From the NCBI GenBank assembly GCA_039818985.1, contig JBCBSU010000002.1, forward strand, positions 310,001 to 374,000: 64,000 nucleotides of DNA, in the 5' to 3' direction. The notes below the pieces were generated by a model. That model did not search any database. It worked only from the letters and a program-made list of their open reading frames with translations, and was not told the DNA's origin. Made by a program: the position numbers and the translations under genes. Origin of the DNA: Pseudomonadota bacterium. GTDB taxonomy: Bacteria; Pseudomonadota; Alphaproteobacteria; Sphingomonadales; Sphingomonadaceae. This document shows, piece after piece, positions 15,261 through 17,168 of the stretch. Numbering within the stretch: position 1 is the first letter of the stretch; each line of letters opens with the position of its first letter.

Positions 15261-17168
15261 ATGACAAACATACGTACAAAACCAGCAACGGCGACAAGCC
15301 CGGTTACCGCGCTCATTTATGCGCGTATCTCAGACCGCAGCCAGCTACAGGGCAGCGGTTTGCAATCACAGGAACATCTGTGCCGCAAATATGCCGAGGA
15401 TAACGGCTATCCGGTGGAAGAGGTTTTTCTTGATACCGTCACAGGCGGAAAGGCCGATCTGTTTGAGCGCCCGGCCATGTTCCAAATCCTGCGCTATCTC
15501 GATGAGCGCCAGCAGACCAATAAGCAGTATATCGTTATTTTTGACGATCATAAGCGCTTTGCCCGGCTGACCGAGATGCACTTGCGCTTGCGCCGGGAAT
15601 TTGCCTCACGCGGCGCGCTGGTTCACTTCCTCAACTTCAAGACCGAGGACACACCCGAAGGCCGCTTTACCGAAACCATGTTTGCCGCCCAGGCGCAGCT
15701 TGAGCGTGAGCAAAATAGCCGCCAATCCTATCAGAAAACCAAGGCAAGGCTCGAAAAAGGGTTTTGGACGCGCCGCGCACCGAGGGGCTATAAATACATC
15801 AAGGCTAAAGGCGGCGGGAAAATCCTTGTGCGCGATGAGCCGATTGCCTCCATCGTGCAGGAAGCGCTTGAAGGCTATGCGAATGGGCGCTTTGCCGCAG
15901 TAACGGAAATTGAGCGCTTTTTGCAGCGCCAGCCGGACTATCCCAAGGACAAGCCCAATGGCACCTTCCACAAGCAAACCGTGCCACGCCTGTTACGCCA
16001 GAAACTCTATGCAGGGTATTTAGAAGCGCCGAGTTGGGGTGTGTCCTTGCGTAAGGCGCAGCATGAGCCTTTGATCAGCTTTGCGACCTTCCAGAAGATA
16101 CAGGCCAAGCGCAATCAGCGTATTTATGCGCCGATGCGCCAAGACATTAGTCACGACTTCCCCTTGCGCGGGGCGGTGGCTTGTTCGAGCTGCGGCAATA
16201 TGCTCACAGCCGCATGGTGCAAAGGCAAATACAAGAAATACCCCTATTATATCTGCCAGAATAAAGACTGCGCGGATTACGCCAAGACGATCCGGCGCGA
16301 CGAGCTTGAGCTAAGGTTCAAGAACCTGCTCAAAGACCTCACACCGACTAAAGAGCTATTTATGCTCGCTGTAGCCCTCTTCGATGATCTCTGGCAGGCA
16401 CGGCAGGCCCAGACCAAGGAAGCGCAGCAATCGGCAAAGCAGCAGATCGCAAAGCTGGAGCAGGAGATTGCGCGCCTGCTTGATCTCATCGTCGAGACGA
16501 CCAATCAGAGTGTCATTAAAGCCTATGAAGAGCGTATCTCGGCGCTGGAAACCAGTAAGCTGTTATTAGCTGAAAAAGCCGCCCGGAAGCCGGAAAAGGC
16601 ACAAGGCTACAGAGACCTTATTAAACTCTCGCTCAAATTCCTCGAAAACCCCGCAAAACTCTGGGATTCCGGGCATTATGCCTTGCGCAGAATCGTGCTC
16701 AAACTGGCCTTTACAGGGCCGATCACCCATGACCGGAAAACAGGCGTATTAAACACTAATTTTTCTATGCCTTTCAAGGCTTTAGGAGGGTTAAACATGC
16801 AGAAAAACAAAATGGTGCTGCTGGAGAGAATTGAACTCTCGACCTCAGCCTTACCAAGGATGCGCTCTACCACTGAGCTACAGCAGCCAACCATTTTGCA
16901 TTTTGCGTCTATCGGCACGTCGGTAAAAACGCGCCGCAAACGGCAGAGCGCGCCTATGCGAAGCGGCGCGGCATTTGTCAAGCGTATTGCTCCTGCCAAA
17001 GCATCATGGCAGACAATGCCCATGTCCGATAAAAGCCGATCCGGCAAGAAAGCAGAGGCCCCGGCAAAACCGATGAGCCGCAAGGAAAGGCTGGCGGCGC
17101 AGCTGCGCGAGAATCTGCGGCGACGCAAGGCGCAGAGCCGGGCGCTGAAGGACGATTCGACCGATTAA
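15261..17168 (+). CDS. Large serine recombinase (element 2 integrase), fused across attR
   Basis: This is a large serine recombinase homologous to the one at 3040. The catalytic serine is S24 in YARISDRSQ, with FDDHKRFAR near residue 95, a zinc ribbon (CSSCGN and YYICQNKDC) near 311-335, a long coiled coil near 380-440, and the conserved end FKALGG. The element-encoded part ends about codon 518, at the attachment core. The open frame then continues through the antisense strand of the tRNA-Thr gene (MVLLERIELSTSALPRM) and into the downstream chromosomal small gene, to a stop at 17168. The last 115 or so residues are therefore junction-derived. RBS AGGAAAGG precedes the ATG. Confidence 0.9.
   Translation: MTNIRTKPATATSPVTALIYARISDRSQLQGSGLQSQEHLCRKYAEDNGYPVEEVFLDTVTGGKADLFERPAMFQILRYLDERQQTNKQYIVIFDDHKRFARLTEMHLRLRREFASRGALVHFLNFKTEDTPEGRFTETMFAAQAQLEREQNSRQSYQKTKARLEKGFWTRRAPRGYKYIKAKGGGKILVRDEPIASIVQEALEGYANGRFAAVTEIERFLQRQPDYPKDKPNGTFHKQTVPRLLRQKLYAGYLEAPSWGVSLRKAQHEPLISFATFQKIQAKRNQRIYAPMRQDISHDFPLRGAVACSSCGNMLTAAWCKGKYKKYPYYICQNKDCADYAKTIRRDELELRFKNLLKDLTPTKELFMLAVALFDDLWQARQAQTKEAQQSAKQQIAKLEQEIARLLDLIVETTNQSVIKAYEERISALETSKLLLAEKAARKPEKAQGYRDLIKLSLKFLENPAKLWDSGHYALRRIVLKLAFTGPITHDRKTGVLNTNFSMPFKALGGLNMQKNKMVLLERIELSTSALPRMRSTTELQQPTILHFASIGTSVKTRRKRQSAPMRSGAAFVKRIAPAKASWQTMPMSDKSRSGKKAEAPAKPMSRKERLAAQLRENLRRRKAQSRALKDDSTD
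16807..16818. repeat. Putative right attachment core of element 2 (attR)
   Basis: The sequence acaaaatggtgc matches 4554-4565 exactly. Its last six bases complement the discriminator-region GCACCA of the tRNA-Thr gene, so integration here would leave the tRNA 3' end intact. Large serine integrases use a very short crossover core, so the exact crossover point within this repeat cannot be fixed. Confidence 0.55.
16813..16887 (-). tRNA. tRNA-Thr (GGT)
   Basis: The minus strand folds as a complete tRNA of 75 bases with encoded CCA. The acceptor arms are GCTGCTG (5') and CAGCAGC (3'). The D-arm region is TAGCTCAGTGGTAGAGC. The anticodon loop TTGGTAA has anticodon GGT at 16853-16855, and the T-stem GAGAG pairs with CTCTC around TTCAATT. 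The anticodon stem CATCC/GGCTG has one T-C mismatch at its third pair. The gene serves as the integration site of element 2. Confidence 0.93.
17022..17168 (+). CDS. Small basic chromosomal protein next to tRNA-Thr
   Basis: The 48-residue product begins MSDKSRSGKK and contains the Arg/Lys-rich helix SRKERLAAQLRENLRRRKAQSRA. I associate this type of small basic protein with sphingomonad genomes, but it has no known function. It lies in the same frame as the upstream recombinase, so in the integrated state it is also the C-terminal end of that long frame. It may be translated separately from its own ATG; a second ATG at 17016 is possible. Confidence 0.6.
   Translation: MSDKSRSGKKAEAPAKPMSRKERLAAQLRENLRRRKAQSRALKDDSTD

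Follow-up and report, generated by a model that had tools for sequence, protein, structure and literature searches.

A recombinase gene that runs into the tRNA gene beside it

The locus examined here raises the question of where a recombinase gene ends when its reading frame runs through the attachment site of its own element and out into the chromosome. The gene, rec2, lies in a stretch of 64,000 nucleotides (the window) and is uninterrupted from 15261 to 17168 on the forward strand, encoding 635 aa in the integrated form. Its body (15261–16806, forward strand), which reaches to the attachment core, contains the resolvase, recombinase, and zinc-ribbon domains of a large serine recombinase (PF00239, PF07508, and PF13408, all above the Pfam cut-off) and a coiled coil. 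Similarity to the NCBIfam entries for CcrB, CcrC, and XisF was weak and below cut-off. The AF2 model of 15261–16804, built from 25 family members, has a mean pLDDT of 80.7 and predicts the coiled coil as two helices, 364–412 and 416–441, that follow the zinc-ribbon strands. In Foldseek searches with this model the best PDB matches were the serine integrase complexes 9dxh, 9iu2, and 4kis (E 6.8e-18, with whole-chain TM-scores of only about 0.4); by sequence alone, no solved structure was matched at E 0.001. Directly upstream of rec2 is a small ORF (14885–15247, forward strand; start codon picked by eye), a homologue of which precedes the recombinase in 55 of 58 elements. Its product is a candidate partner of the recombinase or a candidate recombination directionality factor. 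The rec1 counterpart of this small ORF was seen at 2645–3043.

A 12-bp core, ACAAAATGGTGC, is present twice on the forward strand: as a left copy at 4554–4565, where element 2 has its far end, and as a right copy at 16807–16818, which overlaps the 3' (CCA) end of the target gene, tRNA-Thr(GGT) (16813–16887, reverse strand, from the tRNA call). Chance was rejected as the origin of the pair because these are the sole exact copies on either strand of the 3.09-Mb genome. The rec2 frame crosses the core and continues through an extension (16819–17168, forward strand) made up of the antisense tRNA, its flank, and a small gene at 17016–17168, which adjoins tRNA-Thr and encodes a small basic protein. 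Part of this small gene (17025–17165) was matched in 19 of the 30 genomes searched, own genome included. The coordinates of the ORF, tRNA, and core, together with these matches, bear out a sequence-only reading of the locus, made earlier, in which the frame crosses the core, runs antisense through tRNA-Thr, and ends in a chromosomal small gene. An empty site was found in the same-genus genome G108 (L212), which has the tRNA-Thr and the neighbouring small gene without the element; its homology to the right flank of the window begins at 16810, within the core. None of 29 relatives gave a match to the DNA flanking element 1 on the left.

When the core copies are joined, the rec2 protein ends ...KNKMVPLEASTLNTLFDELADWNAVLEAEHIDWDSLDPSDSIEP after 558 aa, with a TGA stop at 4682–4684, exactly as that reading had predicted (a frame reading KNKMVPLEAS and ending at 4684). 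Counted from the ATG of the core and beyond a body of 517 residues, the circular form would carry 41 junction residues and the integrated form 118; the former figure agrees with the earlier estimate of about 41, and the latter corrects one of about 115.

Positions 1–4565 and 4560–16812 are two related elements in tandem at one tRNA-Thr. At the inner junction the rec1-side attP half is joined to the left end of element 2, the makeup that an insertion of element 2 into the right end of element 1 would produce. With regard to the class of integrative and mobilizable elements, which combine an integrase, a relaxase, and att repeats but lack full conjugation machinery, the features examined were a recombinase, a relaxase, and the att core in element 2 and a coupling-protein gene in element 1. 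The recombinase of element 1, rec1 (3040–4602, forward strand), is 48% identical to rec2 and has the same split layout; its Recombinase domain scores 21.0, just under the cut-off of 21.1, and its tail lies outside the window, about 16.9 kb upstream (C2, about 296.15 kb). Inside element 2, a 199-aa ORF at 10517–11116 has a tyrosine-integrase domain (PF00589) and is possibly truncated, and two overlapping small ORFs at 11661–12234 resemble, by eye, a ParD/ParE-type toxin-antitoxin pair.

Distribution of the recombinase and its tRNA targets

Related recombinases were collected from four overlapping genome samples, with the own genome included in each count. At E 1e-60, matches were found in 25 of 397 genomes of the family and 30 of 396 of the order; at E 1e-50, 22 of 385 genomes of the class were matched, and at E 1e-30, with the body only as the query, 15 of 398 of the phylum. 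All genomes with a match in the phylum sample belong to the same class or closer. Of the 56 recombinase places (the two in the window included, the distant L007 left out), 38 entered the search for far element ends. The others were partial, had a short upstream contig, or were not followed, and G454 and G007 were also left out; at the class level, 20 of the 27 places other than our own were followed.

The sequence-only reading had proposed that relatives with this recombinase at a tRNA-Thr be searched for the same fusion; the layout was found across the recombinase family, antisense to many different tRNAs. Next to the recombinase, an antisense tRNA was detected in 52 of 58 elements and none in the remaining 6. 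The targets were tRNA-Arg (22), Thr (10), Ser (7), Ala (5), Leu (3), Met (2), Val (2), and Tyr (1). Among these 52, the frame enters the tRNA in one phase in 46 and in another in 4, with 2 not assigned: G023, which has an internal stop, and G418, in which the motif pattern failed and the open frame is phase 1. As the recombinase side is 23 codons from the core in 43 of the 46 phase-1 cases, the constancy of frame on this side is not independent evidence. A short degenerate element was noted in genome G772 (L206, also L157), where a truncated recombinase beside tRNA-Leu and a tail occupy one 3.7-kb locus.

A conserved tail at the far ends of the elements

Searching for far ends by longest exact match returned mostly chance hits and was replaced by a profile of the tail; exact identity of the core was likewise abandoned as a criterion, since divergent elements have only TGG in common. 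A profile of six tails, chosen through core matches and visual inspection, detected three more, and the resulting nine-member profile located a tail at the distal end in 25 of the 38 elements, 16 of them outside the seed. The weakest accepted match had an E value of 0.0013, and the next stood at 0.11. The tails resemble LNSLFEELADWEEQLKHSEIN and vary from 30 to 72 residues across the family. In rec2, the missing 3' end is the segment at 4559–4684 (forward strand), 41 codons and a stop, which is in the rec2 frame only across the circle junction. Tail junctions lie 9.9–38.5 kb from the recombinase junction and have a copy of the TGG of the tRNA end. Joining at the best-matching TGG brings recombinase and tail into one frame in all 25 elements. 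The phases of the two parts agree throughout: 21 elements share one phase and 4 have a second, and these four may be a single lineage. TGG, the antisense of CCA, is common to both sides in all 25 elements of this first set and is probably the crossover position; serine integrases recombine with a 2-bp central dinucleotide.

A profile of the 25 tails was applied to another 20 elements from the class and recovered tails in 10. Automatic anchoring was in frame for 8 of the 10, and the other two were in the right phase on inspection: G629 has a TGG in that phase, and in G724, where TGG is absent, a shared GCGCAC is. Chance was rejected as the source of the tails, because reversed upstream sequence (45091 pieces), used as a control, yielded no tail and gave a best E value of 2.8. 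No tail was found in 13 of the 38 elements of the first set or in 10 of the 20 of the second, many of which end at a contig boundary. Nor was one found in some elements with long upstream sequence (80 kb in G232a, 40 kb in G719, and 34 kb in G139) or in the 20–24 kb upstream of G350, G376, G417c, G996, G755, and G745; divergence of the tail, greater length of the element, or decay could each account for such cases. Searches of plasmids (E 1e-40, one partial match), phages (E 1e-20, no match), viral contigs (no match), and the class and phylum genome samples, the latter queried with the body only, revealed neither an unsplit gene nor a circle.

Selection on the tail, and the genes that follow it

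Seven disjoint pairs of tails were compared downstream of the attP motif. Substitutions numbered 52, 32, and 94 at codon positions 1, 2, and 3, and the differing codons comprised 53 synonymous and 64 non-synonymous ones, with dS saturated or not computable in many of the tail pairs. Beyond the core codons, the tails of two different genomes, G201 and G187, differ solely at four third positions. Judged by this excess of third-position substitutions, the tail is constrained as a protein and is real coding sequence. The earlier claim that the C terminus depends on integration state is supported, the circular tail being a conserved, selected segment and not an accident of joining.

Directly after the tail in the window is a MobC-like gene (4681–5052, forward strand), the GTG of which at 4681 overlaps the tail stop, with an ATG at 4696 as another possible start. 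It is followed by a gene for a MobA/VirD2-like relaxase (5056–6318, forward strand; PF03432, E 3.7e-16). In all 25 elements the ORF next to the tail is a member of a single protein family, and the second ORFs likewise form one family, which the relaxase of the window matches in all 25, own element included; split-half profiles recovered every held-out member of both families. Pfam MobC was above cut-off in three of four relatives tested and gave no hit to the copy in the window. Across the 25 elements, the mobC-like gene begins between 1 nt before and 112 nt after the tail stop, and in 12 of them the stop and the next ATG overlap as ATGA. With the tail thus followed by mobC and relaxase, a circle would align the recombinase, mobC, and relaxase genes in one reading direction.

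Motifs of the attachment sites

On 24 of the 25 right sides a TCGAAC-like motif, picked after inspection of the att-side profiles, lies at +18 relative to TGG, whereas on the left ends its best match is at +23 in 23 of 25; with at least five of six positions matching, it is found at +23 in 18 of 25 elements and at 26 of 3677 background TGGYG sites. The 25th right side, belonging to element 1, adjoins the left end of element 2; its motif is at +23, as tandem insertion predicts. In the window both copies read TTGAAC, the variant present in tRNA-Thr: the zinc-ribbon-like motif at 4583–4588 (forward strand, +23) is a putative attP half-site, and the antisense T-arm of the tRNA at 16831–16836 (forward strand, +18) a putative attB half-site. 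On the recombinase side of attP, the profiles of the 25 elements gave no clear matching inverted motif. In the Listeria integrase, the zinc-ribbon motif is described as lying 5 bp nearer the centre in attB than in attP (PMC3783163), and the positions +23 and +18, seen here for the right half only, fit this 5-bp shift of serine integrases. The pattern suggests that the recombinase family reads the universal CCA end and T-arm (TTCGAA) of tRNAs, which would explain how one family can use many tRNA targets.

A gene probably split by integration, and alternative readings

Taken together, the coding tail, the frame that it shares with the recombinase, and the mobC-relaxase pair that follows point to a gene split by integration, and comparison among the elements shows that its conserved 3' end lies across the element from the body. 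Very probably, integration divides the recombinase gene and the circle restores both the tailed recombinase and the order recombinase-mobC-relaxase. The attP site would sit within the recombinase gene, so placed that in the circle the gene is whole, with catalytic, recombinase, and zinc-ribbon domains and the conserved tail, and is succeeded by the mobC-like and relaxase genes. Recombination within the terminal CCA of a tRNA gene would cut the recombinase gene in two, leaving the body beside the tRNA, reading into antisense tRNA, and the tail with mobC at the opposite end. The product of the integrated element would then be limited to a body ending in host-derived residues. Only in the circle would one expect the recombinase to be made at full length and the mobilisation genes to be read from its side, so that both would be coupled to excision. 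Circles are predicted to form and to express the rebuilt genes. The earlier observation is confirmed, and its interpretation is partly supported: the C terminus depends on integration state, and the two forms of the protein could differ in activity.

A more specific proposal, which we regard as possible if rather doubtful, is a self-setting switch of direction. The tailed isoform made from the circle would favour integration (attP x attB), and the untailed form, the only one that the integrated element can make, would be released for excision (attL x attR), whether or not the upstream small protein takes part. In this way the substrate would write the enzyme variant that fits it, and the circle alone would turn on mobC and relaxase.

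The tail might instead have no meaningful part in the recombinase, being conserved as attP DNA and as a leader whose translation brings ribosomes to mobC. The TCGAAC motif does fall within the first 28 nt of the tail, and tail stops overlap the mobC start codon in many elements, so the end of the tail is also leader sequence for mobC. Amino acids, however, need not be kept in a leader, whereas past the motif an LF..L..W segment is retained with substitutions mostly at third positions, and the frame of the tail agrees with that of the recombinase in both phases. We therefore consider this explanation improbable. Less probable again is translation of the tail on its own in the integrated state, from an xTG of the core, to give a micro-protein acting in trans. 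A core-formed ATG, GTG, TTG, or CTG opens 21 of the 25 tails, but those of rec1, G450, G442, and G417a begin NGA/DGA with no start there, and left of the core almost nothing is conserved except a few adjacent A's, which argues against a conserved ribosome site. That the integrated tail of antisense tRNA and small gene functions in itself, as the earlier reading allowed, is likewise very improbable: although the frame in the window stays open for 118 codons, extensions beyond the core range across the family from 5 to at least 494 codons (the longest reached the end of the fetched stretch) and their sequence follows whichever tRNA was hit, so the extension looks incidental and a function for the 118 residues is unsupported.

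Comparison with known systems

If the split-gene reading is correct, these elements would be a bacterial counterpart to the self-splitting integrases of archaea, and this within a class of enzymes employed in genome engineering. They would also offer a route to directionality that is written into the structure of the gene and can be tested. A further consequence would be that C termini read from integrated copies are antisense tRNA, with some 40 conserved residues missed. McMurdie and colleagues have reportedly remarked on the att overlap of the recombinase DsiB and on the circle. DsiB, encoded by the Dehalococcoides ssrA islands, is described in this 2011 paper as having a 3' end that always overlaps the att site and a stop codon outside the island, and full function is suggested to be possible perhaps only in the circle (PMC3146451). 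As described, it resembles rec2 in being a serine recombinase (CcrB-like in the case of DsiB) that overlaps an att site at an RNA gene. It differs in that the section concerned deals with one target, ssrA, and identifies no conserved tail (PMC3146451), whereas the rec2 family, with eight tRNA isotypes as targets, has an identified tail at the far end that is conserved, shares the frame of the recombinase, and precedes mobC and relaxase. In 2011, serine recombinases were described as integrating only rarely at tRNA genes (PMC3218068), and in the parts of the open-licence literature consulted no report of a conserved split tail in such recombinases was found.

Self-disrupting recombinases are described as exclusively archaeal in a 2021 review (PMC8371274). 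As in the suicidal integrases of SSV, pTN3, and pT26-2 treated there, in which integration splits the gene at the att site and it is whole only in the circle, the rec2 family appears to have its gene split by integration, with the 3' end at the far end and in frame in 25 of 25 elements. The archaeal enzymes are tyrosine recombinases with the catalytic domain in the C-terminal part, and both parts are described as inactive (PMC8371274). rec2 is not an archaeal tyrosine recombinase whose parts lack the whole enzyme: in this serine recombinase the catalytic and DNA-binding domains stay intact and only a short tail is lost, and its named relatives are alphaproteobacterial.

Other systems share single features with rec2. 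The integrase of phiRSM, inserted at tRNA-Ser with the core TGGCGGAGAGGGT, is likewise a serine recombinase acting on a reversed tRNA 3' end, but it is described as homologous to small serine recombinases, and its attP is placed between two ORFs and not inside the recombinase (PMC3816273). In ICEKp1 the expression of the integrase changes with integration state, through a promoter switch rather than an altered protein (PMC13023037). Transfer genes of Tn916 are expressed only after excision, from a promoter across the joined ends; in rec2 the join would also make the tail of the recombinase, and the passages on Tn916 mention no protein rebuilt at the junction (PMC11658703). In the immunity system of mycobacteriophage BPs, as in rec2, attP lies within an ORF and integration alters the C terminus, although the protein altered is the repressor, not the recombinase, and its viral tail has an ssrA-like degradation tag (PMC4557955).
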